Source of the DNA: Serratia plymuthica
GTDB taxonomy: Bacteria; Pseudomonadota; Gammaproteobacteria; Enterobacterales; Enterobacteriaceae
Length of the DNA: 64,000 bases
Direction of reading: 5' to 3'
Assembly (NCBI RefSeq): GCF_018336935.1
Contig: NZ_CP068771.1
Span: forward strand, 1,054,001 to 1,118,000
In this document: positions 960-34,113 of the stretch, in pieces
Position numbering within the stretch: the stretch's first letter is position 1
Layout of the letters: every line of letters begins with the position of its first letter
Position numbers and translations under genes: made by a program
The notes under the pieces: generated by a model
Told to the model about the DNA's origin: nothing
Seen by the model: the letters and a program-made list of their open reading frames with translations, nothing else
Databases searched by the model: none

Positions 960-2252
960 TTATTTGTTTTTCAGCTGGGATTTGAAATCACGTTCGGCAT
1001 AGCCGGTATACAGCTGACGCGGACGAGCAATTTTGATGCCTTCGTCATGCATTTCGTTCCAGTGCGCAATCCAGCCGATGGTACGGGCGATGGCAAAGAT
1101 AACGGTGAACATGGAAGAAGGGATACCCATCGCTTTCAGGATGATGCCTGAGTAGAAGTCGACGTTCGGGTACAGTTTCTTCTCGATGAAGTACGGGTCG
1201 TTCAGCGCGATGTGTTCCAGCTCCATCGCCACTTCCAACAGGTTGTCGTCCTTCTTGTTCAGCTCTTTCAGCACTTCGTGACAGGTTTCACGCATCACGG
1301 TGGCGCGCGGATCGTAGTTCTTGTACACGCGGTGGCCAAAGCCCATCAGACGGAACGAATCGTTTTTGTCTTTCGCGCGCTTGATGAACTCTGGGATGTG
1401 CTCAACGGTTTTGATCTCTTCGAGCATCTTCAGCGCGGCTTCGTTGGCGCCGCCGTGCGCCGGCCCCCACAGAGAGGCGATACCGGCCGCGATACAGGCA
1501 AACGGGTTAGCGCCTGAAGAACCTGCGGTACGTACGGTAGACGTGGAGGCGTTTTGCTCGTGGTCGGCGTGCAGGATCAGGATGCGATCCATTGCGCGTT
1601 CCAGCACCGGGTTCACCACGTATTCTTCACATGGGGTAGCGAACATCATGTGCAGGAAGTTGCCGGCGTAGGACAGATCGTTACGTGGGTAAACGAACGG
1701 CTGGCCCAGGGAATATTTGTAACACATCGCCGCCACGGTAGGCATTTTGGACAGCAGACGGAATGCGGTGATCTCGCGGTGACGCTCGTTGTTCACATCC
1801 AGCGCGTCGTGGTAGAACGCCGCCAGCGCACCGGTTACGCCGCACAGCACCGCCATAGGGTGCGAGTCGCGACGGAAGCCACGGAACAGATGGGTGATCT
1901 GGTCGTGGATCATGGTGTGGCGGGTCACGGTAGTTTTGAAGGTCTCGAACTCTTCTGCGGTCGGGGTCTCGCCGTACAACAGGATGTAGCACACTTCCAG
2001 GTAGGAAGACTCTTTCGCCAGTTGTTCGATCGGGAAGCCACGGTGCAGCAGCACGCCTTTGTCACCGTCGATAAAGGTGATTTTGGATTCGCAGGAAGCG
2101 GTAGAAGTAAAGCCGGGATCAAATGTGAAATAACCTTTGGAGCCCAGAGCGCGGACGTCGAGGACATCGGGGCCCAGCGTCGGGGATAATACGCCCAGTT
2201 CGATCGGAGCTTCGCCATCGTTAATGGTTAGCGTCGCTTTCTTATCAGTCAT
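960..2252 (-). CDS. gltA: Citrate synthase (type II, NADH-sensitive family)
   Basis: Condenses oxaloacetate and acetyl-CoA to citrate, the first step of the TCA cycle, in the cytoplasm. The 430-residue protein has the citrate synthase signatures [14 protein letters not shown] and [14 protein letters not shown], which contain active-site histidines, and matches the E. coli hexameric enzyme in length (427 aa). The start is supported by AAGGAG upstream of the ATG. It is divergent from sdhCDAB across a 735-base regulatory interval and ends at a strong terminator. Confidence 0.98.
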
Positions 2253-2485
2253 TTACTGTCTCCTTAGCGCCTTATTTTAAAAACCTCTAACAACTGAAAT
2301 ACCTTAATTCTCCGCAGGTTGCCCGCAAAAAATGGAGCGGGCGCTAACTCTGTGAGCGACTGCGCAATTGCGCGGGTAGGGTACAGAGTGCTAACCAGGC
2401 GAACGAGGCGGGTGACCAGTTGTTAACGATTCATCGGAATTCGTTATATTCTGTTAATCGTACCTACGACGTGTTCGGGGGTTTT

Positions 2486-2557
2486 ATGAACCTATCCCAA
2501 TATGCTGTTTTATTTGCCTTATTTGCTTTTACCTGCGGTGGTTTGTTGCAAACATGA
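2486..2557 (+). CDS. Possible 23-residue hydrophobic small protein
   Basis: ATG at 2486 to TGA at 2555-2557. The peptide starts MNLSQYAVLFALFAFTCGG and continues LLQT; it is almost entirely hydrophobic and could be one short membrane span. A G-rich stretch (2477-2481) lies 4 bases before the ATG. Upstream, TTGTTA at 2420-2425 and TATATT at 2445-2450 could form a promoter, with a rather wide 19-base spacer. Codons 2-6 form the left arm of a perfect inverted repeat whose right arm follows the stop. I do not recognise it; it could be chance or a leader peptide. Confidence 0.33.
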   Translation: MNLSQYAVLFALFAFTCGGLLQT

Positions 2558-2586
2558 CCGGCAAAAACGGTTATTGGGATAGGTTC
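2488..2586. repeat. Perfect 15-base inverted repeat bracketing the small ORF
   Basis: GAACCTATCCCAATA at 2488-2502 is the exact reverse complement of TATTGGGATAGGTTC at 2572-2586, with 69 bases between the arms. In RNA the right arm would pair with codons 2-6 of the small ORF. There is no T-run after the right arm, so it is not a standard terminator, and no obvious target duplication flanks it. Confidence 0.8.
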
Positions 2587-2733
2587 TGCCAAATACACTG
2601 TTGCATATCTTGAACACTGGGGGAAGTGTATCTGCTGACCTATAGCGCATCATAGGACCGTTTGTGCCCCTATATGTAATGGAAATGTTGATCTCTTGTC
2701 AAATCAGATAATTAATTTTGTGCTAATTGTGAA

Positions 2734-2755
2734 ATCCGTGATCTCAATCACTGTT
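2734..2755 (+). promoter_or_regulatory. CRP-like binding site upstream of sdhC
   Basis: GTGA-TCTCAA-TCAC at 2738-2751 is a symmetrical match to the CRP core TGTGA-N6-TCACA, centred about 80 bases before the predicted sdhC transcription start. E. coli sdh is CRP-activated, so the placement is sensible. Confidence 0.6.
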
Positions 2756-2789
2756 CGGGGGAAATGTTACCAAACAGATTGTATGGGAA

Positions 2790-2818
2790 TTGTAATCAGA
2801 ATGTGATCCTCCTATACT
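2790..2818 (+). promoter_or_regulatory. Sigma-70 promoter of sdhCDAB
   Basis: TTGTAA at 2790-2795 and TATACT at 2813-2818 with a 17-base spacer. It is the best promoter-like match in the interval and points at sdhC. Confidence 0.65.
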
Positions 2819-2987
2819 GCCGCCAGGTCTCCGGATTACCCTGAAGTAGGAGCACCCAGCGTTATAAATGCGCGCCGTTTAAGCACAGAGGATGTTGATG
2901 TTTGAGCGCGTGACGTGTAAGGGTTTTGGCTCTTAACGCTGTCTGATCCCCACCCAGGCCCGGAGGAAGGAAAATAATAAGAGCTGT

Positions 2988-3377
2988 GTGGGCAAAAACG
3001 TGAAAAAACAAAGACCTGTCAACCTGGATCTGCAAACGATTCAGTTTCCCGTAACTGCGATAGCGTCCATTTTACACCGAGTCTCTGGCGTAATTACCTT
3101 CGTTGCCGTAGGTATCCTCCTCTGGCTGCTGGGCCTGTCTCTCTCTTCCCAAGAGGGTTTCATGCAGGCTGCTGCCATCATGAATAGCTTCATCGTTAAA
3201 TTCATATTTTGGGGCATCCTCACGGCGTTGGCCTATCACATTTGCGGTGGCATCCGTCACTTGTTAATGGATTTTGGCTATATCGAAGAGAGTTTAGCCG
3301 TAGGTCAACGTTCTGCCCAAGTGGCGATCGGTCTGACCGTCGTGCTGTCAGTTCTGGCTGGAGTCCTCGTATGGTAA
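2988..3377 (+). CDS. sdhC: Succinate dehydrogenase cytochrome b556 subunit
   Basis: Membrane anchor of complex II that binds haem b and ubiquinone together with SdhD. The 129-residue protein has three membrane spans, the haem-ligand His84 (in LAYHICGG) and the quinone-site residues Ser27 and Arg31. A GTG at 2988 gives the exact E. coli length; a GGAGG at 2962-2966 is too far for it, so initiation may use the weaker AAGAG at 2979-2983. Its stop overlaps the sdhD start by 7 bases. Confidence 0.96.
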
Positions 3378-3718
3378 ACAATGTTTCTGCATTAGGGCGC
3401 AATGGCGTACACGATTGGTTGTTATTGCGTGCTTCCGCTATCGTCATCACCCTGTACGTGCTGTATATCCTGGGCTTCTTCGTCACGGCTCCGGATCTCA
3501 CCTATGAAATCTGGCGCGGTTTCTTCGCCACCTCTATTACGAAAGTGTTCACGCTGCTGACGCTGCTGTCGATTCTGGTTCACGCCTGGGTCGGTTTGTG
3601 GCAGGTGCTGACGGATTACGTCAAACCGCTGGCAGTGCGTCTGGTATTGCAACTGGCGATCGTTGTCGTGTTGCTGGTCTATTTACTGTACGGAACAATC
3701 GTAGTGTGGGGTGTGTAA
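3371..3718 (+). CDS. sdhD: Succinate dehydrogenase membrane anchor subunit
   Basis: Second membrane anchor of complex II. It starts at the ATG at 3371, overlapping the end of sdhC in the sequence ATGGTAA, and gives [10 protein letters not shown] and 115 residues, the family length. His71, Asp82 and Tyr83 (HAWVG, LTDY) match the haem and ubiquinone site of E. coli SdhD. Three hydrophobic spans are visible. The stop is immediately followed by the sdhA ATG, so all four subunits are tightly coupled. Confidence 0.96.
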
Positions 3719-5485
3719 ATGAAGCTGCCGGTCAGAGAGTTTGATGCAGTAGTTATCGGTGCTGGCGGTGCAGGTATGCGCGCTGCACTGCAGATTTCTC
3801 AAGCGGGCTCAACTTGTGCCCTGCTATCCAAAGTATTCCCGACCCGTTCCCATACCGTGTCTGCGCAGGGCGGCATTACCGTAGCCCTGGGCAATAACCA
3901 CGATGATAACTGGGAATGGCATATGTATGACACGGTGAAAGGTTCCGATTATATCGGTGACCAGGACGCCATTGAATATATGTGTAAAACCGGCCCGGAA
4001 GCGGTTCTGGAACTGGAGCATATGGGGTTGCCGTTCTCCCGTACGGACGAAGGCCGCATTTATCAGCGCCCGTTCGGCGGCCAGTCACTGAACTTTGGTG
4101 GCGAGCAGGCGGCACGCACCGCGGCGGCGGCTGACCGTACCGGTCACGCCCTGTTGCACACCCTGTATCAACAGAACCTGAAAAACCACACCACTATTTT
4201 CTCCGAGTGGTATGCGCTGGATCTGGTGAAAAACCAGGATGGCGCGGTAGTGGGTACCACGGCTATCTGCATTGAAACCGGTGAAGTGGTTTACTTCAAA
4301 GCCAAAGCCACCGTGCTGGCGACCGGCGGTGCAGGCCGTATTTACCAGTCCACCACCAACGCGCATATCAATACCGGCGACGGTGTCGGCATGGCGCTGC
4401 GCGCCGGCGTGCCGGTGCAGGACATGGAAATGTGGCAGTTCCACCCGACCGGCATTGCCGGCGCCGGGGTTCTGGTGACGGAAGGTTGTCGTGGCGAAGG
4501 CGGTTACCTGCTGAACAAACACGGCGAGCGTTTCATGGAGCGCTATGCGCCGAACGCCAAAGACCTGGCAGGCCGTGATGTGGTTGCCCGTTCGATCATG
4601 ATTGAAATCCGCGAAGGCCGCGGCTGTGACGGTCCGTGGGGGCCACACGTCAAGCTGAAGCTGGATCACCTGGGTAAAGAGGTGCTGGAATCCCGCCTGC
4701 CGGGCATTCTGGAACTGTCGCGCACTTTCGCGCACGTCGATCCGGTCAAAGAGCCGATCCCGGTTATCCCGACCTGTCACTACATGATGGGCGGCATTCC
4801 GACCAAGGTGACCGGCCAGGCACTGACCGTGAACGAGAAAGGCGAAGACGTGGTGATCCCGGGTCTGTTTGCCGTGGGCGAAATCGCCTGCGTATCGGTA
4901 CACGGCGCCAACCGCCTGGGCGGCAACTCACTGCTGGATCTGGTAGTGTTCGGGCGTGCTGCCGGCATGCATTTGCAGGAGTCACTCGCGGAGCAGGGCG
5001 AAAGCCGTGACGCCAGTGAGTCGGATGTGGAAGCGTCGCTTGATCGTCTGAACCGTTGGAACAATACCCGTTCCGGCGAAGATCCGGTTGAAATTCGCAA
5101 GGCGCTGCAAGCCTGTATGCAGCACAACTTCTCGGTATTCCGTGAAGGTGATGCCATGGCGAAAGGGCTGGCAGAGTTGAAAGAGATCCGTGAACGTCTG
5201 AAGAACGCACGCCTGGACGATACCTCCAGCGAATTCAACACCCAGCGCATCGAATGCCTGGAGTTGGATAACCTGATGGAGACTGCGTTTTCCACCGCCG
5301 TGTCGGCCAACTTCCGTACCGAGAGCCGTGGGGCGCATAGCCGCTTCGACTTCCCGGATCGCGATGACGCCAACTGGTTGTGCCATTCGCTGTATCAGCC
5401 GCAATCGGAAAGCATGACGCGTCGTGAAGTGAACATGCAACCGAAGCTGCGCCCGGCATTCCCACCGAAAGTGCGTTCCTACTGA
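3719..5485 (+). CDS. sdhA: Succinate dehydrogenase flavoprotein subunit
   Basis: Oxidises succinate to fumarate with a covalently bound FAD on the cytoplasmic face of complex II. The N-terminal dinucleotide fold [13 protein letters not shown] is followed by His45 in [10 protein letters not shown], the residue that carries FAD. The 588 residues equal the E. coli length. The gene starts directly after the sdhD stop and is followed 16 bases later by sdhB. Confidence 0.98.
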
Positions 5486-5501
5486 TCGCGGAGATCGATT
5501 G

Positions 5502-6218
5502 ATGAAACTCGAATTCTCAATATATCGCTATAACCCGGATGTCGATGACGCTCCGCATATGCAGGATTACACCCTGGAAGCGGAAGAAGGCCGGGACATG
5601 ATGCTGCTGGATGCGTTAATCCAGTTGAAAGAGAAAGATCCGACCCTGTCGTTCCGCCGTTCGTGCCGTGAGGGCGTGTGCGGTTCCGATGGTCTGAACA
5701 TGAACGGTAAAAACGGTCTGGCGTGCATTACCCCCGTCTCGGCGTTGCGCAAAGGCAACAACAAGATTGTGATCCGTCCTCTGCCTGGGTTGCCGGTGGT
5801 GCGGGATCTGGTGGTTGATATGGGCCAGTTCTATACCCAGTATGAAAAGATCAAACCTTACCTGCAGAACGACGGCAAGAATCCTCCGGCGCGCGAACAC
5901 CTGCAATCGCCGGAACAACGGGCTAAACTGGACGGTTTGTATGAATGTATCCTGTGCGCCTGTTGCTCGACGTCTTGCCCATCGTTCTGGTGGAATCCTG
6001 ACAAGTTCATAGGGCCGGCCGGTCTGTTGGCGGCGTATCGCTTCCTGATCGACAGCCGTGACACGGAAACGGAAGAACGTTTAGACGATCTGGACGACGC
6101 TTTCAGTGTTTTCCGCTGCCATAGCATTATGAATTGTGTCAGTGTATGCCCTAAAGGCTTGAACCCGACGCGTGCGATCGGTCATATCAAGTCTATGCTG
6201 CTGCAACGCGGCGCATAA
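5502..6218 (+). CDS. sdhB: Succinate dehydrogenase iron-sulfur subunit
   Basis: Carries electrons from SdhA to quinone through three Fe-S clusters. The [2Fe-2S] ligands are Cys55, Cys60, Asp63 and Cys75; the [4Fe-4S] motif is CILCACC and the [3Fe-4S] motif is CHSIMNCVSVCP. I chose the ATG at 5502 (MKLEFSIYRY, 238 aa, E. coli length) because GGAGA lies at a proper distance; a TTG just upstream would add one residue. Confidence 0.97.
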   Translation: MKLEFSIYRYNPDVDDAPHMQDYTLEAEEGRDMMLLDALIQLKEKDPTLSFRRSCREGVCGSDGLNMNGKNGLACITPVSALRKGNNKIVIRPLPGLPVVRDLVVDMGQFYTQYEKIKPYLQNDGKNPPAREHLQSPEQRAKLDGLYECILCACCSTSCPSFWWNPDKFIGPAGLLAAYRFLIDSRDTETEERLDDLDDAFSVFRCHSIMNCVSVCPKGLNPTRAIGHIKSMLLQRGA

Positions 6219-6232
6219 GCGAAACGAGATGC

Positions 6233-6255
6233 TGCGCCGGGCAGGTCCCGGCGCA
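6233..6255 (+). other. Stable hairpin just after sdhB
   Basis: TGCGCCGGG and CCCGGCGCA (6233-6241 and 6247-6255) form a 9-base-pair stem with a 5-base loop, 14 bases after the sdhB stop. No T-run follows, so it may protect or pause the sdh transcript rather than end it. Confidence 0.6.
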
Positions 6256-6268
6256 CATCGCAAAGGAG

Positions 6269-6340
6269 GGAGCCTCTAAAAACTGACCCGCGGCTGCGGC
6301 GCTATGCAGCCTGGTTCGCCCGCCGGTTTTTAGAGGTTCC
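6269..6340. repeat. 72-base imperfect palindrome between sdhB and sucA
   Basis: The 15-base arms at 6269-6283 and 6326-6340 (core CCTCTAAAAAC / GTTTTTAGAGG) pair with a single G-U wobble around a 42-base GC-rich centre. It lies between sdhB and an ERIC copy. It is not an ERIC by sequence and I do not recognise the family. Confidence 0.7.
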
Positions 6341-6388
6341 TTGTAAGGGACCGCAAGGTCCATAACAAAACGTATCAGGCCATAATGG

Positions 6389-6502
6389 CATACCCTATGA
6401 TTTTCGAGTTGCAGCCAGGCGACCGGTTCGCGAGTCCCCATGTAAGTTACTGGGGGGAGCGAACGCAGGCAACAACGCTGCGGCTTGAAAGGCGACGGGT
6501 AT
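6389..6502. repeat. ERIC element, copy A (sdhB-sucA)
   Basis: Begins ATACCCTATGATTTTCGAG and ends AAGGCGACGGGTAT, with the ERIC core around GTAAGTTACTGGGGGGAGCG. Ends are inverted (TACCC / GGGTA). It is transcribed as part of the sdh-suc message, about 100 bases before sucA. Confidence 0.85.
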
Positions 6503-6602
6503 TAAGTACGTCGAGTGAACCGTTTCTACGGCAAACCGTATCCATCACGGTAATTATGTTAACCACGGCGAAAACTAAAGCTTCAAAGCTTAAGGGATCA
6601 TG

Positions 6603-9410
6603 ATGCAGAACGGCGCAATGAAGGCCTGGCTGGATTCCTCCTATCTGGCGGGCGCGAACCAGTCTTACATAGAACAGCTCTATGAAGACTTCTTAACCGA
6701 TCCGGGCTCCGTTGAAGATAGCTGGCGTTCCATTTTTCAACAGCTACCAACCGCGGGTGTTAAACCCGATCAGCTTCACTCTCAAACGCGTGACTACTTC
6801 CGCCGCCTGGCGAAAGACTCTGCGCGTTACAACACCACCATCAACGATCCAGACACCGACGCCAAACAGGTCAAGGTACTGCAGCTGATCAACGCCTTCC
6901 GTTTCCGCGGACATCAGCATGCCAACCTCGACCCGCTCGGTCTGTGGCAACAAGAGACCGTTGCCGATCTCGATCCCGCTTACCACAATCTGACCGACGC
7001 AGACTTCCAGGAAACCTTCAACGTGGGTTCATTTGCCATCGGCAAAGAGACCATGAAGCTGGGCGATCTGTATGCCGCGCTGAAGCAGACTTACTGCGGT
7101 TCGATCGGTGCGGAATACATGCACATCACCAATACCGAAGAGAAACGCTGGATCCAACAGCGCATCGAATCGGTAGCGGGGCGCGCCAGCTTTACCAACG
7201 AAGAGAAACGCCGTTTCCTGAACGAGCTGACCGCAGCGGAAGGTCTGGAACGCTATCTCGGCGCTAAATTCCCGGGAGCGAAACGCTTCTCTCTGGAAGG
7301 CGGCGATGCGCTGGTGCCTATGTTGAAAGAGATGGTTCGCCACGCCGGCAAGAACGGCACGCGCGAAGTGGTGCTGGGCATGGCTCACCGCGGCCGTCTG
7401 AACGTGTTGATCAACGTGCTGGGCAAAAAACCGGCCGACCTGTTCGACGAGTTTGCCGGCAAGCATAAAGAACACCTCGGCACCGGTGACGTAAAATATC
7501 ACCAGGGCTTCTCCTCCGACGTCGAAACCGAAGGCGGCATGGTTCACCTGGCGCTGGCGTTCAACCCGTCGCACCTGGAGATCGTCAGCCCGGTGGTGAT
7601 GGGCTCCGTACGTGCCCGCCGCGATCGTCTGGACGAAGCGCGCAGCAACATGGTGCTGCCAATCACCATCCACGGTGACGCCGCTATTACCGGCCAGGGC
7701 GTGGTTCAGGAAACCCTGAACATGTCGCAGGCTCGCGGTTACGAAGTGGGCGGCACGGTGCGTATCGTCATCAACAACCAGGTTGGTTTCACCACCTCCA
7801 ACCCGTTGGATGCGCGTTCGACCCAATACTGTACCGATATCGCCAAAATGGTGCAGTCGCCGATCTTCCACGTCAATGCCGACGATCCGGAAGCGGTGGC
7901 GTTCGTTACCCGCCTGGCGTTGGATTTCCGTAACACCTTCAAACGCGATGTGATGATCGATCTGGTCTGCTACCGTCGTCATGGGCATAACGAGGCCGAC
8001 GAGCCAAGTGCAACCCAGCCGGTGATGTACCAGAAAATCAAAAAACATCCGACGCCGCGCAAGCTTTATGCTGACGTTCTCACCGAACAGAAAGTCGCGA
8101 GCCTGGAAGATGCCACGGAAATGGTCAACCTGTATCGCGATGCGCTCGATCGCGGCGATTGCGTGGTTGAAGAATGGCGTCCGATGAATCTGCATTCCTT
8201 TACCTGGTCGCCGTACCTGAACCACGAGTGGGACGAAGAGTACCCAAGCAAGGTTGAGATGAAGCGCTTGCAGGAACTGGCTCGTCGCATCAGCACCGTC
8301 CCGGAAGCGATCGAAATGCAGTCGCGCGTAGCGAAAATCTACGGCGACCGTGCAGAGATGGCCGCAGGCAACAAAGCGTTCGATTGGGGCGCGGCTGAAA
8401 CGCTGGCCTACGCCACTATGGTCGATGAAGGCATTCCGATTCGCATTTCCGGTGAAGATGCCGGGCGCGGGACCTTCTTCCACCGTCATGCAGTGGTGCA
8501 TAACCAGAAAAACGGTTCGGTCTACGTTCCGCTGGCGAATGTGCACAGCGGGCAGGGCGAGTTTAAAGTCTGGGACTCCGTGCTGTCTGAAGAAGCGGTG
8601 CTGGCGTTCGAATACGGCTACGCCACTGCGGAACCGCGCACCCTGACCATCTGGGAAGCGCAGTTCGGTGACTTCGCCAACGGCGCTCAGGTGGTGATCG
8701 ATCAGTTCATCAGCTCCGGCGAGCAGAAATGGGGCCGTATGTGTGGCCTGGTGATGCTGTTGCCGCACGGCTACGAAGGCCAGGGTCCGGAGCACTCCTC
8801 CGCGCGTCTGGAGCGTTACCTGCAGCTGTGCGCAGAACAGAATATGCAGGTGTGCATCCCGTCCACCCCGGCACAGGTTTACCATATGCTGCGTCGTCAG
8901 GCGCTGCGCGGTATGCGCCGTCCGTTGGTGGTGATGTCACCGAAATCCCTGCTGCGTCATCCGCTGGCGGTTTCTTCCCTGGACGAACTGGCTAACGGCA
9001 CCTTCCTGCCGGCTATCGGCGAGATCGACGAGCTGGATCCGAAAGCGGTCAAACGCGTGGTGATGTGCTCCGGCAAGGTGTATTACGACCTGCTGGAACA
9101 GCGCCGCAAGAACGACCAGAAAGACGTGGCTATCGTACGCATCGAGCAGCTGTACCCGTTCCCGCACCAGGCCGTTCAGGCCGTGCTGGAGAAGTATGCT
9201 CACGTGCATGATTTCGTCTGGTGCCAGGAAGAGCCGCTGAACCAGGGCGCCTGGTACTGCAGCCAACACAATTTCCGTGAAGTCGTGCCGTTCGGGGCTT
9301 CTTTACGTTACGCCGGACGTCCAGCCTCCGCCTCTCCGGCGGTCGGTTATATGTCCGTACACCAGAAGCAGCAACAGGCTCTGGTTAATGACGCGCTGAA
9401 TATTGAATAA
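6603..9410 (+). CDS. sucA: 2-oxoglutarate dehydrogenase E1 component
   Basis: Thiamine-diphosphate enzyme that decarboxylates 2-oxoglutarate and transfers the succinyl group to SucB lipoate. The protein starts MQNGAMKAWLDSSYLAGANQ and has 935 residues, close to E. coli (933). Motifs include AHRGRLNVLINVLGK and the ThDP-binding GDAAITGQGVVQE region. Tandem ATGs occur at 6600 and 6603; AGGGA at 6593-6597 favours the second. sucB follows after 18 bases. Confidence 0.98.
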   Translation: MQNGAMKAWLDSSYLAGANQSYIEQLYEDFLTDPGSVEDSWRSIFQQLPTAGVKPDQLHSQTRDYFRRLAKDSARYNTTINDPDTDAKQVKVLQLINAFRFRGHQHANLDPLGLWQQETVADLDPAYHNLTDADFQETFNVGSFAIGKETMKLGDLYAALKQTYCGSIGAEYMHITNTEEKRWIQQRIESVAGRASFTNEEKRRFLNELTAAEGLERYLGAKFPGAKRFSLEGGDALVPMLKEMVRHAGKNGTREVVLGMAHRGRLNVLINVLGKKPADLFDEFAGKHKEHLGTGDVKYHQGFSSDVETEGGMVHLALAFNPSHLEIVSPVVMGSVRARRDRLDEARSNMVLPITIHGDAAITGQGVVQETLNMSQARGYEVGGTVRIVINNQVGFTTSNPLDARSTQYCTDIAKMVQSPIFHVNADDPEAVAFVTRLALDFRNTFKRDVMIDLVCYRRHGHNEADEPSATQPVMYQKIKKHPTPRKLYADVLTEQKVASLEDATEMVNLYRDALDRGDCVVEEWRPMNLHSFTWSPYLNHEWDEEYPSKVEMKRLQELARRISTVPEAIEMQSRVAKIYGDRAEMAAGNKAFDWGAAETLAYATMVDEGIPIRISGEDAGRGTFFHRHAVVHNQKNGSVYVPLANVHSGQGEFKVWDSVLSEEAVLAFEYGYATAEPRTLTIWEAQFGDFANGAQVVIDQFISSGEQKWGRMCGLVMLLPHGYEGQGPEHSSARLERYLQLCAEQNMQVCIPSTPAQVYHMLRRQALRGMRRPLVVMSPKSLLRHPLAVSSLDELANGTFLPAIGEIDELDPKAVKRVVMCSGKVYYDLLEQRRKNDQKDVAIVRIEQLYPFPHQAVQAVLEKYAHVHDFVWCQEEPLNQGAWYCSQHNFREVVPFGASLRYAGRPASASPAVGYMSVHQKQQQALVNDALNIE

Positions 9411-9428
9411 AGATTAAAGGAAAGCTAA

Positions 9429-10649
9429 ATGAGTAGCGTAGATATTCTGGTTCCTGACCTTCCTGAATCGGTTGCCGATGCGACCGTAGCCACCTGGCAC
9501 AAGAAACCAGGCGACAGCGTCCAGCGTGACGAAGTGCTGGTTGAAATCGAAACTGACAAAGTTGTGTTGGAAGTGCCGGCCAGCGAAGCAGGTATTCTTG
9601 ATGCGATCGTGGAAGAAGAGGGCGCAACCGTGCTTTCTCGCCAGATCCTCGGCCGTATTCGCCCGGGCAACAGCTCTGGCAAGCCGACCGAAGAGAAAAG
9701 CCAGGCTAAAGAAGCCACTCCGGCACAGCGCGCAACCGCCAGCCTGGAAGAAGAGAGCAACGATGCGCTCAGCCCGGCGATCCGCCGCCTGATTGCTGAA
9801 CACGATCTCGACGCTGCAGCCATCAAAGGCAGCGGCGTGGGTGGCCGCATCACTCGCGAAGACGTGGAAGCGCATCTGGCTAACGGCAAGAAAGCCGACA
9901 AGCCGGCCGCAGCCGCAGTTGAAGCCGCACCGCAGCCTGCTCTGAGCAACCGCAGCGAAAAACGCGTGCCGATGACCCGTCTGCGCAAGCGCGTGGCTGA
10001 GCGTCTGTTGGAAGCGAAGAACAGCACTGCGATGCTGACGACCTTCAACGAAATCAACATGCAGCCGATCATGGACCTGCGCAAGCAGTACGGTGAAGCC
10101 TTCGAAAAACGCCACGGTGTACGTCTGGGCTTCATGTCCTTCTACATCAAGGCGGTGGTTGAAGCGCTGAAACGCTTCCCGGAAGTGAACGCTTCCATCG
10201 ACGGCACCGACGTGGTCTACCACAACTACTTCGATATCAGCATTGCGGTATCTACTCCACGCGGCCTGGTGACCCCGGTTCTGCGCGATGTGGACAGCAT
10301 GAGCATGGCGGATATCGAGAAGAAAATCAAAGAGCTGGCGGTCAAAGGCCGTGACGGTAAATTGACCGTGGAAGAACTGACCGGCGGTAACTTCACCATT
10401 ACCAACGGCGGCGTATTCGGCTCATTGATGTCTACCCCGATCATCAACCCGCCGCAGAGCGCGATCCTGGGCATGCACGCCATTAAAGATCGCCCAATGG
10501 CGGTGAATGGCCAGGTTGTGATCCAGCCAATGATGTATCTGGCGCTTTCTTACGATCACCGCCTGATCGACGGCAAAGAGTCCGTTGGTTACCTGGTGAC
10601 GGTGAAAGAGATGCTGGAAGATCCGGCTCGTCTGCTGCTGGACGTATAA
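9429..10649 (+). CDS. sucB: Dihydrolipoyl succinyltransferase (2-oxoglutarate dehydrogenase E2)
   Basis: Core of the 2-oxoglutarate dehydrogenase complex; accepts succinyl on lipoate and passes it to CoA. Domains in order: lipoyl domain (residues 1-77, lipoyl-Lys44 in ETDKVVLEV), peripheral subunit-binding domain (about 112-150, [14 protein letters not shown]), and acyltransferase domain ending with the catalytic [11 protein letters not shown]. Length 406 aa against 405 in E. coli. Has a good SD AAAGGAAAG. Confidence 0.98.
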
Positions 10650-27192: not shown

Positions 27193-27918
27193 ATGAGCTT
27201 TTTCAGTACCAGCAATATCTTGGTGCACATCCCGCTGGGGGCGGGCGGTTACGATCTGTCATGGATTGAAGCCATAGGGACCTTGTTCGGCCTGCTATGC
27301 ATCTGGTACGCCAGCAAAGAGAAAATTATCAACTATCTGTTTGGCCTGATTAACGTCACGCTGTTTGCGGTGATTTTCTTTCAGATCCAGCTTTACGCCA
27401 GCCTATTGCTGCAGCTGTTCTTTTTTGTCGCCAATATTTACGGCTGGTATGCCTGGAGCCGCCAAACCCAGGACAATCAGGCCGAGCTGCAAATCCGCTG
27501 GCTGCCGTTACCGAAAGCGCTGGCTTGGGCGGCGGTGTGCGTTATCGGCATTGCCCTGATGACCTTCAATATCGACAGCGTCTTTGCCTGGCTGACGCAG
27601 CTTGCGGTGACGGTAATGCAGGGAGTAGGCCTTAACGTGCAGATGCCGCAACTGCAACCGGATGCTTTCCCGTTCTGGGACTCGGCGATGATGGTGTTGT
27701 CGATTGTGGCGATGATTTTGATGACGCGCAAATACGTGGAAAACTGGCTGTTGTGGGTGGTGATTGACGTCATCAGCGTGGCGATTTTCGCCTATCAGGG
27801 TGTGTACGCCATGGCGCTGGAATACGTGATCCTGACGCTGATTGCGCTGAACGGTTCCTGGTTGTGGATCAAAAGTGCAGGTCGCAACCATTCCCTGCCG
27901 TTATCTTCCTCGCAATAA
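27193..27918 (+). CDS. pnuC: Nicotinamide riboside transporter PnuC
   Basis: Inner-membrane facilitator for nicotinamide riboside. 241 residues, about seven to eight hydrophobic spans, with the WIEAIGTLFGLLCIWYASKE opening and LRxNWLLWVVIDVISV-type motif (ENWLLWVVIDVISVAIFAYQ). Good AAGGA before the ATG. Cotranscribed with nadA, so synthesis and salvage of NAD share control. Confidence 0.95.
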   Translation: MSFFSTSNILVHIPLGAGGYDLSWIEAIGTLFGLLCIWYASKEKIINYLFGLINVTLFAVIFFQIQLYASLLLQLFFFVANIYGWYAWSRQTQDNQAELQIRWLPLPKALAWAAVCVIGIALMTFNIDSVFAWLTQLAVTVMQGVGLNVQMPQLQPDAFPFWDSAMMVLSIVAMILMTRKYVENWLLWVVIDVISVAIFAYQGVYAMALEYVILTLIALNGSWLWIKSAGRNHSLPLSSSQ

Positions 27919-27955
27919 CAAACGCAGAGGGCGCCAAACTGGCGCCCTCGTACTT

Positions 27956-28918
27956 TTAGTGGTGATGACCCAGATGTGAATGCGAGCCGGAATGTGAGTG
28001 GTCACTCGGCTCGGGTGCCCGATTAATCCCGCAGTCCGGAGTATCGCAGTGCTGATATTCCATCTGAATGGTGACATGGCCGATCCGGTAGTGTTCCAGC
28101 AGATAAGCCTGAATGCGGCGCAGCAGGCCATCGTGGTCGTTTGGCGGTATCACCTGCGCATGCAGCGTCATCAGTTTCTGTTCGCCAATCTGCCAGACGT
28201 GAACGTGATGGATATTGCGCACTTCAGGGATATTCAGGCACAGGTCTTTTTGCAGTTTGTTGATATCTACCTCCTGCGGCGTGCCTTCCAGCAACTCGTG
28301 GAAGCTCTCTTTCAGCAGCCGCCAGGCGCTGCGTACCACCAGACAGGACACCAGAACCGACAGTATCGGGTCAATCGGCGTCCAGCCGGTGCTCAGGATC
28401 ACAATGGCGGCAACGATGGCCCCCACCGAGCCCAGCAAATCCCCCAACACGTGCAACGCAGCGGCCCGCACGTTGATGTTCTTCTCTTCCGTACCGCGGT
28501 GCAGCAGCCAGAAGGCGAACAGGTTAGCCAGAAGCCCCGCTATGGCGATGATCAGCATCGGCACACCCATCACCGGCTGTGGCTCGAAGAAACGCCGTAT
28601 CGCTTCCCACAGGATGAATACCACGATCACCAACAGGGCGGCGGCATTGAGAAACGCCGCCAGCGTGGTCAGGCGCAAATAGCCGAAGGTATGGCGTGCG
28701 TTGGGTTTACGCTGTGAAAAGTGTACCGCCATCAGCGCCACCAGCAGCGCCGCCGCGTCGGTGAGCATATGGCCGGCGTCGGCCAGCAGCGCCAGCGAGC
28801 CGGAAATCAGCCCGCCTGCCACTTCGGCGATCATAAATACCGCAGTGACTAAAAAAGCGGTCAGTAGGCGTTTACTATTACTGTTTTTTGGCTGATGTGC
28901 CTGTGGGGAGTCCGTCAT
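27956..28918 (-). CDS. zitB: Zinc exporter ZitB (cation diffusion facilitator)
   Basis: Proton-driven efflux of zinc from the cytoplasm. 320 residues with six membrane spans, metal-site motifs [15 protein letters not shown] and HVLGDLLGS, a cytoplasmic C-terminal domain, and a His-rich tail ([16 protein letters not shown]). The ATG overlaps the TAA of the upstream sensor kinase gene (TAATG) and is preceded by AAGGA, so it is the third gene of a two-component operon. In E. coli zitB stands without such a partner. Confidence 0.95.
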
Positions 28919-31900
28919 TATTTATCCTTATGTATAGCGAAATACGGCGCGTCAGTGGTGACCAGTCCGTCCAGTTCTATCAGTATCTGTTCTACCAACG
29001 CGCTCAGTTCAGTATAGGCGGCCTGAGCCAATACCCCTTCACGGCCGCTTTCCACCAATAATTGGCACAGGTTTGCCGTCTCCGGCCGCTGCAACATCAG
29101 CAGGCTGCCCTTGATGCGATGTGCGGCCTGCCCAAGGCTCGGCCAGTCTTCGCTCTCCGCCGCCTGGTCAAGTCGTTGCCGGTCTTGTCGCAGCGTGGAG
29201 ATCAGCGTGGTGGCCAGGCGTTGCGCCATCAGCCGATCATTGCCGGCCATATCGCCCAGCACCCGTTTTAGGTCAGTAAGGGCTAACTGCCGTTCCAGCG
29301 CCTGCGGTTGCTGCGGTAACGCCTGGGCAATGGCGGCCAGTGAAATCGGTTTGGTCAAAAAGCGATCGACAAACGCCCGTCCCTGCGGAATGCGGGTAAA
29401 TTCCTGCACGTCTGCCGAACAGAGAATAATCTGGCAGGCCGGGCGACGATAGCGCTGTTCATCGCGGCGTATCAGTCGCGCCAATGTCAGGCCGTCCGGG
29501 CGCGGCATGTTGTAATCGATGAACAGCAGATCAAACGGCTGCCTGCGGTGAACTTTCAGCAGTGCATAACCGTGTTCGAACAGTGCCGGCTGCAGGCCGA
29601 AGTGACGCAGTTGCCGTTCCATCAGCAGCAGGTTGGTCGGGTGATCGTCAATCAGCGCCACGCGCAGCGTGGAGGGCGACGGCAGGCTGAGCGGTGGGTC
29701 GGTCTGGCGGAGGGGAGCGGTATCCAGGGGGGCCTGGGTAACCGGCACCGAAACCTTGACCTGCGTACCTATGCCGGGTTGCGATTGCAGCTCAATCCGG
29801 CCGCCCATTTGCTCGATAATTTCCTTGCAGATAGACAATCCCAGCCCGGTACCCTGTACCGATACGCGCTGTGCGCCGCGGGCGCGGTAGAAGGGTTGGA
29901 ACAGTTTGCCGATCTCATCGGGGGCGATACCACAGCCGCTATCGGTCACCGTCAGTAACAACTCGCCCTGTTGTTTATCCTGCTCGCGCCAGCCGATATT
30001 GACCTGAATGCTGCCGCGCGGAGTGAATTTAATGGCGTTATTTATCAGGTTGTTAGCTACCTGAAGTAAACGCTCACCATCAATAACAACGGCGGCAGGA
30101 AGTGGGTGGCCGGCGGTAACGCTCAAGGTTACCGGGCGTTCGCCGATCAGCGGCTGATACAGCGCGCTGATATGGGCTAGCCAGGGTTGCAGCGCCAGGG
30201 GCTTTGGCGCCAGCGTCAAGGTTCCGGTTTCCAGCCGGGCGTAATCTTGTAAATCATTAAGCAGATTGAGCAAGGATGACGCCGAACTGTAAATCACCGG
30301 CAGCCCCTCCGGCATTGGCCGGCGTTTCAGCTCCAGTTCCAGCAGGCCGAGTATGGCGTGCATGGGCGTGCGCAGTTCATGGCTGATGGTGGCCAGAAAC
30401 TTGCTTTTCATCCTGTTCTCGGCTTCGGCCTGGCGGCGTGCCTGCTCGATCACTTCACGCTCGCGCTTTTCCCTGCGCTGCAAAATAAACCGGCGCAATG
30501 TCAGCGCCAGCAGCAGCAGGATCGCCGCTGCGAGTAGCGCCAGCAGCCAGGTAGTTTGCGGCTGCATGCGGTTGTCGTTCACCGCGTCAATCAGGTTGCT
30601 GCGATCGACAATCCACTCATCGCGCAGCGATTGCAGGGTTTCCGAGGGGATCTGCATCAGGTTTTTATCGAGGATAGCCAGCAGCAGCGGCTGATCCTGG
30701 CGCACGCCGAACGCCACCGGATAGGCGACGTTATTGGCGGCGAACGCCAGTTTTATTGCCCCGGAATAACGTGACAGGGCGATAAAGTTCGCCGAGATCA
30801 CGTTATCCACCAGCGCATCCAACTGGCCGTTGGCCAGGGCGTCGTACATGGCCTTGCTATCGGCAAAGCGCACCGGCTCTTCGTGCGGAGGGACCAGCCC
30901 CTGCGCCAGATCGCCTTGCAGTACGCCGATGCGCTTGCCGGCCAGATCGTTCCAGGTAGAAATCCCGTTGGCATACTGACCTACATAAACCCCCCACAAC
31001 GAACGGTGAATCGGCATGCTGGTGCTGTAACGTGCCTTAACGCCGCGCGCCAGCGGCAGAGCGGTGCGGAAACTGGCCTGGCCGGACAACACCAGTTGAT
31101 CTGCCTGTTCGGCATTGCGCGCCCATAGCGGAGCAAAACGCAGCCCGGTGTTTTGCGCAATGATATTGAGTATGTCGATAGCGTAGCCGCGCGGTTGGTT
31201 GTCGGAGCCGCGATAGGCGAACGGGAAGTTATCCTCTATGGCGGCGTAATAGACGGTGGGGTGTTTTGCTACCCAGTTTTTTTCCATCTGCGTCAGATCG
31301 GCGTTGCCGGTATCGAGATAACTGGGGATCTTTTTGCTCCAGCGGCTTTGAATGGCGTTCATCAACTCCATGGGCGTATCGGCGATGGCGACGTTGAGGG
31401 TGTCGATCAGCGCCGGGTTGTCGGCGGCGAAGACGAAAGACAGGTTACCGAGATTGACCGTGCTTTCGATCTGATAAAGCTGGCCGAGCTGCAACTGGTC
31501 AATAATAAAGCTGGCGCTGGCTTCGTCGGCAATAAAGTAATCGCTGCTGCCGTTCAGCAAGGCATACACCGCCTGCAGGTTATTGTCATAACGCTGCACG
31601 TGGGAAGACACCGCCTTCAGCGCGTTGCCGGCCTGCATATCGGTCAGGGTACTGATCGCCACTCGCGCATCGGCGGAGTTCAGCATCACCTGGCGGTCAT
31701 TGCTCCGATCGCGCAGTACGCGCAGGTTGCTGACGTAATAAGGCTGGGAGATTTTCAGATCCTCCAGCGCCTCATTCTGCGGAATGCCGTACACCAGATC
31801 GATAACGCCGCTGTGCAGCGCCTGTTCGAGCTGCGGCAAATCGGCGAAGCCGTAAATCTGAAAGCGGATGCCGGTAACTTGCTGGATATAACCGAGGTAG

Positions 31901-32127
31901 TCGGCGTTCAGCCCGTACAGATCGTCGTCCACAATAATGTTATAGGGGCTGGCATTCTCGCTGATGATACCCACACGCAGCGTAGCGTCGCGCCAGGGAT
32001 TTTTCTCGCTGGCAATCAGCATATCCGCCGGAATATTCAGGCTGCTGACCAACCGATAAGGCACCGGTTGCGCCGCGTAGGCGAGGTTGCACAGCATCGC
32101 CAATAGCAGCAGAACGCCACGCATCAT
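28918..32127 (-). CDS. BvgS/EvgS-type hybrid sensor histidine kinase without PAS domain
   Basis: Membrane sensor that passes phosphate His-Asp-His-Asp to the adjacent regulator. 1069 residues: signal peptide 1-19; two periplasmic SBP_bac_3 (venus-flytrap) domains at about 50-265 and 290-510; membrane span about 526-547; short coiled linker; HisKA with His583 ([10 protein letters not shown]); ATPase with NNLINNAIK (692-700) and [10 protein letters not shown]; receiver with Asp871 (LLFIDYNMP); Hpt with His1003 ([10 protein letters not shown]). BvgS and EvgS have a PAS domain between the span and HisKA; here only about 30 residues lie there. Overlaps the regulator gene by 4 bases and zitB by 1. 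Confidence 0.93.
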
Positions 32128-32741
32128 GGCGTCAGTTCTCTAAATACCGCCACCAGTTCCAACAGGTTGCCGGCGCCGGTTTTGCGCAGAATATTCTTCT
32201 TGTGGGTGCTGACGGTTTTGTTGCTGATGTTCAGCATCTCGGCAATTTGCAGATTGGACAGCCCCTTGCTGAGCAGGCCGAGGACTTGCAGTTCTTTGGG
32301 TGTCAGTAGCGTTCCCTCCGCCGATTGCGTTTCTTCCGCCATCGCGCCGGCGGGAAAACTCGGCTCCCCGGCCAGCACGGTTTCAATTGCCTGCACCAAT
32401 TGTTCAAGCCGGCTGCCTTTATGCACAAACCCGTTAGCGCCGGCCGCCCAGGCCATGCGCGCGTAGATCTCTTCTTCCTGCGCGGTGTAGATCAGGATCG
32501 GTTGTTGCGGGTAGTGGCGGCGGATCTTTTTCAGCAGTTGCAAGCCGTCTACCTGCGGCAGGCCGATATCCAGAATGACCAGCGAAAAATCGGCGCTGGC
32601 CAATTGGGCCAAGGCCTGAACATCGTCCTGTACCGCCTGCAGGCTATAAGGGCAGGAAGACTTCATTAGCGCCGCTTCCAGTGCGACATGAACCACCGGG
32701 TGGTCATCAACTAATAACAGAGAAGGCATGGTTTGGCTCAA
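32124..32741 (-). CDS. EvgA/BvgA-like response regulator (NarL/FixJ type)
   Basis: Transcription factor partner of the hybrid kinase. Receiver domain with acidic pocket Asp12-Asp13 and phospho-acceptor Asp58 (VILDIGLPQ), then a LuxR-type HTH at about 143-200 (LTPKELQVLGLLSKGLSNLQ). The reading frame opens with TTG at 32741, which has AGGA about nine bases upstream; an ATG at 32729 (MPSLLLVDDHP) would give 201 residues and has no clear ribosome site. Its end overlaps the kinase start as ATGA. Its targets are unknown; zitB in the same operon is an obvious candidate. Confidence 0.9.
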   Translation of the reverse strand: MSQTMPSLLLVDDHPVVHVALEAALMKSSCPYSLQAVQDDVQALAQLASADFSLVILDIGLPQVDGLQLLKKIRRHYPQQPILIYTAQEEEIYARMAWAAGANGFVHKGSRLEQLVQAIETVLAGEPSFPAGAMAEETQSAEGTLLTPKELQVLGLLSKGLSNLQIAEMLNISNKTVSTHKKNILRKTGAGNLLELVAVFRELTP

Positions 32742-32892
32742 GTAGCGGTATCCTGATCGCTAGCATAGCGAAAAAGGAGCCACTGCGCTCTCCCGATGAA
32801 ACAGCACAATCTACTGATAACTTGGTCGTTCAGCCGCGAGGCGGCTAAGGTGATTTACAGCGCTACCCTCACAGGCTAAATTGGTTGGATCT
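32742..32892. promoter_or_regulatory. Divergent interval between the two-component operon and aroG
   Basis: About 150 bases of unique sequence before ERIC copy D. It must carry the promoter of the regulator-kinase-zitB operon leftwards and probably that of aroG rightwards. I found no clear TyrR box pair and no well-formed zinc-regulator site by eye. A small GC stem, GCCGCGAGGCGGC (32834-32846), is present. Confidence 0.45.
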
Positions 32893-33017
32893 ATACCCGT
32901 CGCCTTTCAAGTCGCAGCGTTGTTACCTGCACTCACTCACCCCAGTTACTTACTTAAGTAAGCGCCTGGGAATGAGTGAACTGGGCGCCTAGCTGCAACT
33001 TGAAATTCATAGGGTAT
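32893..33017. repeat. ERIC element, copy D (upstream of aroG)
   Basis: 125 bases from ATACCCGTCGCCTTTCAAG to AATTCATAGGGTAT, containing CACCCCAGTTACTTACTTAAG of the ERIC core. It ends 43 bases before the aroG ATG, so the aroG promoter either lies upstream of it or is formed by its right end. Confidence 0.93.
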
Positions 33018-33060
33018 GCGCTTTGTGAAATACCGCCCCTCGATACCGAATGGAAAAGTT

Positions 33061-34113
33061 ATGAATTACCAAAATGATGATCTACGCATTAAAGAAATTA
33101 AGGAACTCCTGCCACCGGTGGCCCTGTTAGAGAAGTTTCCGGCCACTGAACGTGCAGCTGAGACGGTGTCCCTGGCGCGCAGTGCAATTCACAAGATCCT
33201 TCGCGGTAACGACGATCGCCTGCTGGTGGTTATCGGCCCATGCTCGATCCACGATACCAAAGCGGCAAAAGAGTATGCCGAGCGCTTGCTGACGCTGCGC
33301 CAGGAACTGAGCGGCGAACTGGAAGTGGTGATGCGCGTTTACTTTGAAAAACCGCGTACCACCGTGGGCTGGAAAGGGCTGATCAACGATCCGCTGATGG
33401 ATAACAGCTTCCAGATCAACGACGGTCTGCGCCTTGCCCGTAAGCTGCTGTTGGATATCAACGATAGCGGTTTGCCGGCTGCGGGGGAATTCCTCGACAT
33501 GATCACCCCGCAGTACCTGGCGGATCTGATGAGCTGGGGCGCGATCGGCGCACGTACCACGGAATCCCAGGTGCACCGCGAGCTGTCTTCCGGCCTGTCT
33601 TGCCCGGTTGGTTTCAAGAACGGCACCGACGGCACCATTAAAGTGGCGATTGACGCCATCAACGCGGCCAGCGCACCGCACTGTTTCCTGTCGGTGACCA
33701 AATGGGGCCACTCGGCGATCGTTAACACCAGCGGTAACGGCGATTGCCACATTATTCTGCGCGGCGGCAAAGAGCCGAACTACAGCGCGGCGCACGTGAA
33801 AGAAGTCAAAGACGGGCTGGTCAAAGCGGGCCTGCCGGCGCAGGTGATGATCGACTTCAGCCACGCCAACAGCAGCAAGCAGTTCAAAAAGCAGTTGGAC
33901 GTGAATGCGGACGTGTGCAAACAGGTCGCCGGCGGTGAAAAAGCGATTATCGGCGTGATGATCGAAAGCCATCTGGTGGAAGGCAACCAGAATCTGGAAA
34001 GCGGCGAGCCGCTGGTCTATGGCAAGAGCGTGACAGACGCTTGCATCGGCTGGGAAGACACGGAAACCGTGCTGCGTGAGTTGGCGGCAGCCGTGAAAGC
34101 GCGCCGCGCCTAA
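33061..34113 (+). CDS. aroG: 3-deoxy-7-phosphoheptulonate synthase, Phe-sensitive
   Basis: First enzyme of the shikimate pathway, joining phosphoenolpyruvate and erythrose 4-phosphate. MNYQNDDLRIKEIKELLPPV start and 350 residues match E. coli AroG. Motifs VVIGPCSIHD and ALMxWGAIGARTTESQ-type region (DLMSWGAIGARTTESQVHRE) are intact. The longer in-frame start at 33016 lies within the ERIC copy and is rejected. Confidence 0.97.
   Translation: MNYQNDDLRIKEIKELLPPVALLEKFPATERAAETVSLARSAIHKILRGNDDRLLVVIGPCSIHDTKAAKEYAERLLTLRQELSGELEVVMRVYFEKPRTTVGWKGLINDPLMDNSFQINDGLRLARKLLLDINDSGLPAAGEFLDMITPQYLADLMSWGAIGARTTESQVHRELSSGLSCPVGFKNGTDGTIKVAIDAINAASAPHCFLSVTKWGHSAIVNTSGNGDCHIILRGGKEPNYSAAHVKEVKDGLVKAGLPAQVMIDFSHANSSKQFKKQLDVNADVCKQVAGGEKAIIGVMIESHLVEGNQNLESGEPLVYGKSVTDACIGWEDTETVLRELAAAVKARRA

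Follow-up and report, generated by a model that had tools for sequence, protein, structure and literature searches.

What does a two-component system do next to a zinc exporter? The question is raised by a stretch of 64,000 nucleotides from Serratia plymuthica (contig NZ_CP068771.1, positions 1,054,001 to 1,118,000; hereafter the window), in which the genes for a response regulator, a hybrid sensor kinase and the zinc exporter ZitB follow one another head to tail on the minus strand, between convergent pnuC and divergent aroG (Table 1). An earlier note on this DNA had described the three genes as one translationally coupled operon, and had proposed that the sensor responds to a metal or to a compound that mobilizes zinc, with ZitB output as part of the response. 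The operon fared well in our analysis and the zinc response did not: the locus is probably an old operon, made up of a promoter, the regulator, a sensor of the BvgS family without a PAS domain, and zitB, in which the pair would serve a wider regulon and ZitB would be co-expressed. As far as sequence can establish them, the gene order, the overlaps, the domains, the phosphorelay residues, the single origin and the promoter of a relative that lacks the pair (locus L038) are firm.

Table 1. Features of the locus, in coordinates of the window.
Feature	Position	Strand	Basis
Imperfect hairpin with T-tract, just upstream of the promoter	32771..32793	-	Sequence and alignments; absent from the terminator-scan list
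TATGCT, likely -10 element of the operon promoter	32762..32767	-	Conserved TAT[GT]CT; alignments
Response regulator, receiver and LuxR/GerE helix-turn-helix, 201 residues	32124..32729	-	Pfam Response_reg and GerE; D54 in 19/19
Hybrid sensor kinase, 1069 residues: signal peptide, two venus-flytrap domains (VFT1, VFT2), transmembrane helix, linker, DHp/CA, receiver, Hpt	28918..32127	-	Pfam
AAGGA, likely zitB ribosome-binding site, within the final sensor codons	28925..28929	-	Sequence; four-fold-site identity
zitB, cation diffusion facilitator zinc exporter, 320 residues	27956..28918	-	NCBIfam NF002923 equivalog
Hairpin of 10 pairs between zitB and convergent pnuC	27927..27949	both strands listed	Terminator scan

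The junctions are as tight as had been described: regulator and sensor overlap by 4 bases (ATGA), and the sensor TAA and the zitB ATG by 1 base (TAATG). We place the regulator start at the ATG at 32729, the mechanical open reading frame beginning earlier with a TTG at 32741; this Met aligned with the start codon in 19 regulators, whose starts were chosen by script to fit it. The exporter scored 578.3 bits with the NCBIfam ZitB model NF002923 (cut-off 408), which assigns it to ZitB. At the regulator-sensor junction, 18 loci in a set of 19 (the window plus 18 fetched regions) offer an ATG or GTG at -4 or -1 that could serve as start codon. The sensor-zitB distance ranged from -38 to +84 bases in the 18 loci without frame breaks, with an overlap in 10 of them, and the exact TAATG junction was confined to Serratia, both in this set and in the named loci described below.

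The adjacency of the pair and zitB is more than chance. We surveyed 295 genomes of the GTDB family, scoring at most four candidates per genome and accepting as a clear orthologue any sensor whose flytrap region matched at E < 1e-100. Such sensors were found in 19 genomes and adjoined zitB in all 19; aroG and zitB flanked the pair at every one of these loci, and pnuC was found at 16. The next sensor matches were at most 32 per cent identical, and none stood beside zitB among those for which the place of zitB was listed. A survey of 345 genomes across the order yielded 7 that passed a threshold of 1e-60, five above 750 bits and two at 258-267 bits, all from the same family. By two short peptide patterns, which do not amount to a census, we further located 65 named loci in Serratia, Yersinia (ruckeri, nurmii and aldovae), Ewingella, Rouxiella, Pantoea, Mixta, Winslowiella, Izhakiella, Erwinia and under a few other labels. 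Here, zitB directly followed the sensor in 63 loci, the other two being a contig end and Y. ruckeri, and aroG was found in 60; two Pantoea loci (L126, L129) showed neither aroG nor gpmA upstream despite a stretch long enough to hold them. The proposed gene order is thus widely conserved, overlaps included, and the pair was not seen to be regularly separate from zitB.

This arrangement appears to have been inherited as a unit. The 19 zitB-linked sensors formed one group when set against 11 other BvgS-like sensors (support 100/100), and sensor distances correlated with those of zitB (0.93, 18 loci), pnuC (0.93, 15 loci) and aroG (0.87, 18 loci), leaving out the frame-broken locus L066; none of 2000 permutations reached values as high. 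We infer that vertical inheritance with many losses fits best. The closely related S. inhibens and S. plymuthica share 99 per cent identity in zitB and 95 and 93 per cent in the sensor. L049, a locus without the pair whose genus also includes two carriers, aligns as if the stretch from the ybgS terminator to the sensor stop had been lost. A candidate sensor remnant in L037 was rejected, its protein score being 51 against a shuffle maximum of 50, its DNA matching on the aroG promoter side only, and a pooled test giving nothing. An alternative account is that the pair and zitB share their slot by history, with no common physiology. The zitB-pnuC-aroG neighbourhood does exist without the pair in other sampled genomes and in E. 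coli, where strain 7/2 has the order aroG, ybgS, zitB, pnuC with no two-component genes between them, as the earlier note had stated, and zitB stays where the pair is gone. The tight overlaps, and the presence of zitB beside the pair in all 19 orthologous loci and in 63 of the 65 named ones, however, suggest selection for co-expression, and we consider pure linkage possible but on the unlikely side.

A shared transcript of regulator, sensor and zitB is very likely, judging from the overlaps, the conserved adjacency, the common -10 element and, in L038, a promoter with a remnant of the regulator start in front of zitB. Neither gene junction has a minus-strand entry in the terminator scan, and Rfam gave no match at gathering scores between 27000 and 34400. 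In 13 Serratia sensors, the last 19 codons showed a four-fold-site identity of 0.91, the top of 43 windows (0.47-0.85 in the others), and the 50 codons preceding them were ordinary at 0.68 and 0.72. As the raised synonymous constraint is confined to the last 19 of the last 69 codons, at the ribosome-binding site, it favours a shared transcript over a promoter within the 3' end of the sensor gene. A zitB promoter inside the sensor gene, uncoupling the exporter from the transcription of the pair, might be suspected from the spacing of sensor and zitB, which reaches 84 bases in some genera, and from terminator-like sites within the sensor gene, but no sigma-70-like site was found on the minus strand (in a scan that also misses the proposed operon promoter), and together with the pattern of constraint this leaves such a promoter very unlikely.

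The operon promoter itself was traced by alignment of selected upstream regions (24 and 10 loci). In 57 of 61 loci, the motif TAT[GT]CT precedes the regulator by 18-75 bases, compared to a shuffled expectation of 0.05 per sequence; the shuffles, here and in the remnant and promoter comparisons, preserve base composition only. Its context presumably resembles that of sigma-S promoters. The hairpin just upstream occupies the place of the ybgS terminator in relatives that keep ybgS. A YbgS-like gene stands between regulator and aroG in 44 of the 61 loci, and Pfam YbgS was detected in all three such frames scanned from relatives (L074, L070, L079); it is missing from the window, from 13 named Serratia and from the three Yersinia, while Serratia sp. 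AKBS12 (L091) keeps the gene, unlike the 13. In Pantoea-type loci, the -10 element follows close behind the hairpin 3' of ybgS, and in most Serratia ybgS is absent and a hairpin-like stretch is found in the same place.

Traces of this promoter could also be followed into genomes that lack the pair. In L038, the same -35/-10 stands before zitB and continues into what is left of the first regulator codons (score 57, at most 38 in the shuffles). The DNA remnant exceeded the shuffles against four of seven single orthologues; at the protein level it did not (50 against 58). In the pooled comparison of 18 genomes without the pair, with 30 shuffles per genome, weaker promoter alignments were obtained for L041 (47 against 34), L040 (41 against 34) and L048 (38 against 32). 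A TTGCAA-like/TAT-like pattern was present upstream of zitB in 7 of the 18, a pattern counted without a control.

Several observations weigh against the operon as we read it. Three of them lowered our confidence: the -10 element is missing in four loci, namely Serratia sp. M24T3 and each of the three Yersinia (Y. ruckeri, Y. nurmii, Y. aldovae); two of the six above-shuffle matches in genomes without the pair, L042 (38 against 37) and L049 (54 against 29), correspond to the ybgS terminator only and not to the promoter; and terminator-like sites occur on the minus strand inside the sensor gene at two places, near 30500 and 31550. In addition, 12 of the 18 genomes were not above their shuffles (L044 equalled the maximum and 11 fell below), the proposed promoter has no clear -35 in the window, and a strict scan of 27900-33200 gave no minus-strand promoter. 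The pair is absent from 144 of the 163 genomes that gave a zitB match at 1e-40 in the sample of 295, and in L082 and L092 zitB is broken where the sensor frame is open.

The sensor protein indicates which kind of signalling system was retained. Pfam identified two SBP_bac_3 stretches, HisKA, HATPase_c, a receiver and Hpt, the signal peptide and transmembrane helix being judged from sequence. An AlphaFold model of residues 1-540, based on a 19-sequence alignment, reached a mean pLDDT of 82 and a pTM of 0.54, and Foldseek with the periplasmic model returned BvgS first (4q0c, E 1.3e-38, 22 per cent identity) and EvgS second (9ilw). Pfam, model and fold search thus all bear out the two periplasmic flytrap domains that had been proposed, and these place the sensor nearer to BvgS/EvgS than to metal kinases. 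Among 54 sensors, the set used for all residue counts below, the phosphorelay residues H583 and D871 were present in 54 and H1003 in 53 (one sensor has T at the Hpt position), and the phosphoacceptor of the regulator is invariant (Table 1). The linker, counted from the RR after the transmembrane helix to the phospho-His, measures 38, 31 or 42 residues in 26, 26 and 2 sensors, respectively; the two common lengths are one heptad apart, and the length of 42 does not differ from either by whole heptads. So short a linker leaves no room for a PAS domain. Pfam found no PAS in the sensor at 0.001, which by itself is a weak result given that a longer sister (L147) also gave none.

The sensor is therefore most likely a PAS-less phosphorelay of the BvgS family: tandem flytraps, a PAS-less helical linker, and a kinase-receiver-Hpt array with its phospho-residues are all present, and the cytoplasmic PAS of BvgS and EvgS proper is not. 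The NCBIfam scores remained below their cut-offs for EvgS (244.8 of 1995 bits), for EvgA (103.4 of 251 bits) and for the heavy-metal sensor kinases CzcS/SilS/CopS (TIGR01386, 109.9 versus 292.55 bits). The regulator matched Response_reg, GerE and, below threshold, HTH_23 only, with no match to the BetR family.

What the flytraps might bind can be narrowed down from conservation. Of the 83 periplasmic positions conserved at 97 per cent or more, eight carry Asp or Glu and not one carries His or Cys; His occurs below this level, at position 289 in 45 of 54 sensors (83%), at 175 in 33 and at 459 in 27. The lobe-2 Asp of both flytraps (D201, D441) is present in all 54, which we take to be the ligand Asp of amino-acid-binding family 3 solute-binding proteins. 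In an alignment with GlnPQ, no conserved carboxylate-binding Arg was seen in columns 114-131 or 352-371 (best R354, 21 of 54). EvgS VFT1 likewise lacks such an Arg (PMC5573083). With no His/Cys conserved at the 97 per cent level and no conserved Arg, the sequences support neither zinc binding nor amino-acid binding of the classical kind, and our guess would be that the signal is an amine or a physical condition.

Broken and missing genes provide a second view on function. All three genes are open and of expected length in 50 of the 65 named loci. The remaining 15 include nine in which the sensor frame is broken at a distance from contig ends, and zitB is open in all nine; apart from the two loci with a broken zitB given above, the rest are Y. 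ruckeri and contig ends. In draft genomes, such frame breaks may be real decay or sequencing error. A broken pair with open zitB is seen in L135, L137 and L145 (Candidatus Pantoea haifensis, a stinkbug-symbiont Pantoea and Mixta mediterraneensis); in the stinkbug-symbiont locus, the regulator frame is open and the sensor broken. In S. rubidaea NCTC12971 (L092), the sensor end and zitB are both frame-broken. Several sampled genomes retained zitB where the pair was lost. Y. ruckeri ATCC 29473 (L093, 5941-9854) presents the converse case, with the pair kept and zitB missing from the locus; outside the locus, its genome gave a best zitB match of 29 per cent identity. Its sensor gene of 1063 codons overlaps the end of convergent pnuC.

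These data bear directly on the proposal of a dedicated zinc or metal-chelate response, in which the sensor would detect the metal, a complex or a mobilizing compound, the regulator would activate its own operon, and ZitB would be the response. Adjacency kept over a large divergence, with zitB deleted from beside the pair only once in 65 loci (L093), is in keeping with it, as are His289 and the eight conserved acidic residues. Against it stand the missing His/Cys at the 97% level, the low TIGR01386 score, zitB open in nine of nine loci with a broken sensor, and the pair of Y. ruckeri with no zitB found. The make-up of the sensor and the pattern of losses thus give no support to metal sensing or to ZitB output as part of the response, and inspection by eye showed no regulator site shared across families that would help either; a zinc response is possible, though we judge it unlikely. 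Even less probable is a BvgS-family module for metal homeostasis, in which the flytraps would read a periplasmic metal complex or an amine-type chelator and ZitB, by setting the periplasmic level that the sensor reads, would close a feedback loop.

For the co-expressed operon that we favour, the following sequence of steps can be envisaged. The two flytrap domains would read a periplasmic ligand or condition and shift the coiled coil of the linker, upon which phosphate would pass along the His-Asp-His-Asp chain to the regulator. The regulator would then act on its regulon, whose main target may be a gene other than zitB. ZitB would be made from the same transcript, with translation starting from a separate ribosome-binding site within the last sensor codons, and may provide basal zinc export alongside the signalling proteins. 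Only under autoregulation, with the regulator acting on the operon promoter, would the signal change the level of ZitB, and no site conserved across families was seen upstream of the operon when the alignments were inspected by eye. A near-palindrome does cover the -10 element in Serratia (32761-32771), with matched changes in some species; we did not use it as a regulator site, as it is absent in the Pantoea group and broken in S. quinivorans.

Among described systems, BvgS of Bordetella and its PAS-less homologues come closest, sharing tandem flytraps, a transmembrane helix leading into a helical linker, DHp/CA, receiver, Hpt and a NarL/FixJ-type regulator. Unlike BvgS, the present sensor has no room for PAS, its periplasmic identity is 22 per cent, and its operon partner is zitB. 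PAS-less BvgS homologues with linkers that differ in heptad number have been described (PMC5829827). EvgS/EvgA of E. coli has the same layout apart from PAS, with family cut-offs that the present pair does not reach. The longer sister sensors L020-L022 (open frames of 1232-1286 residues), nearest in a midpoint-rooted tree, are 29-30 per cent identical in the flytrap region and, unlike the zitB-linked sensor, lie away from zitB. We had assumed a PAS domain in these sisters from their length, and do not claim one, since a Pfam scan of one of them, at locus L147, returned SBP_bac_3, HisKA, HATPase_c, receiver and Hpt and no PAS. At that locus (1042-9927), this longer relative of the pair has genes for an outer-membrane usher and a PapD-type chaperone as neighbours. 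EepR/EepS (BetR-Reg1-Reg2) of Serratia marcescens is also a two-component system in this genus; as described (PMC7618870), it comprises a BetR-family regulator and three genes including a periplasmic protein, with Reg2 drawn as needing a separate Hpt. Identity with EepR/EepS was dropped on account of the BetR regulator and the three-gene layout.

E. coli ZitB is the same exporter with the same neighbours ybgS, aroG and pnuC, and differs in having no two-component genes between ybgS and zitB. There, zitB is described as constitutive (PMC3852070); in Serratia and Pantoea, it would stand in a different transcriptional setting. Our searches of open-access literature turned up no description of the pair with zitB. 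The locus thus presents a well-conserved PAS-less member of the BvgS family tied to zitB, a two-component system held beside a single zinc exporter over large divergence, and the natural experiments in which either the pair or zitB was lost and the other kept make its function testable.

Between aroG and the operon promoter, the window also contains a repeat of ~120 bases (32888-33016) that looks like a small mobile repeat. S. inhibens, S. plymuthica and others lack it at this position, and Serratia sp. PL17 has it. A search of the same genome gave at least 47 matches, a figure that counts the repeat itself and fragments of it, with 40 of 131 candidates scored.

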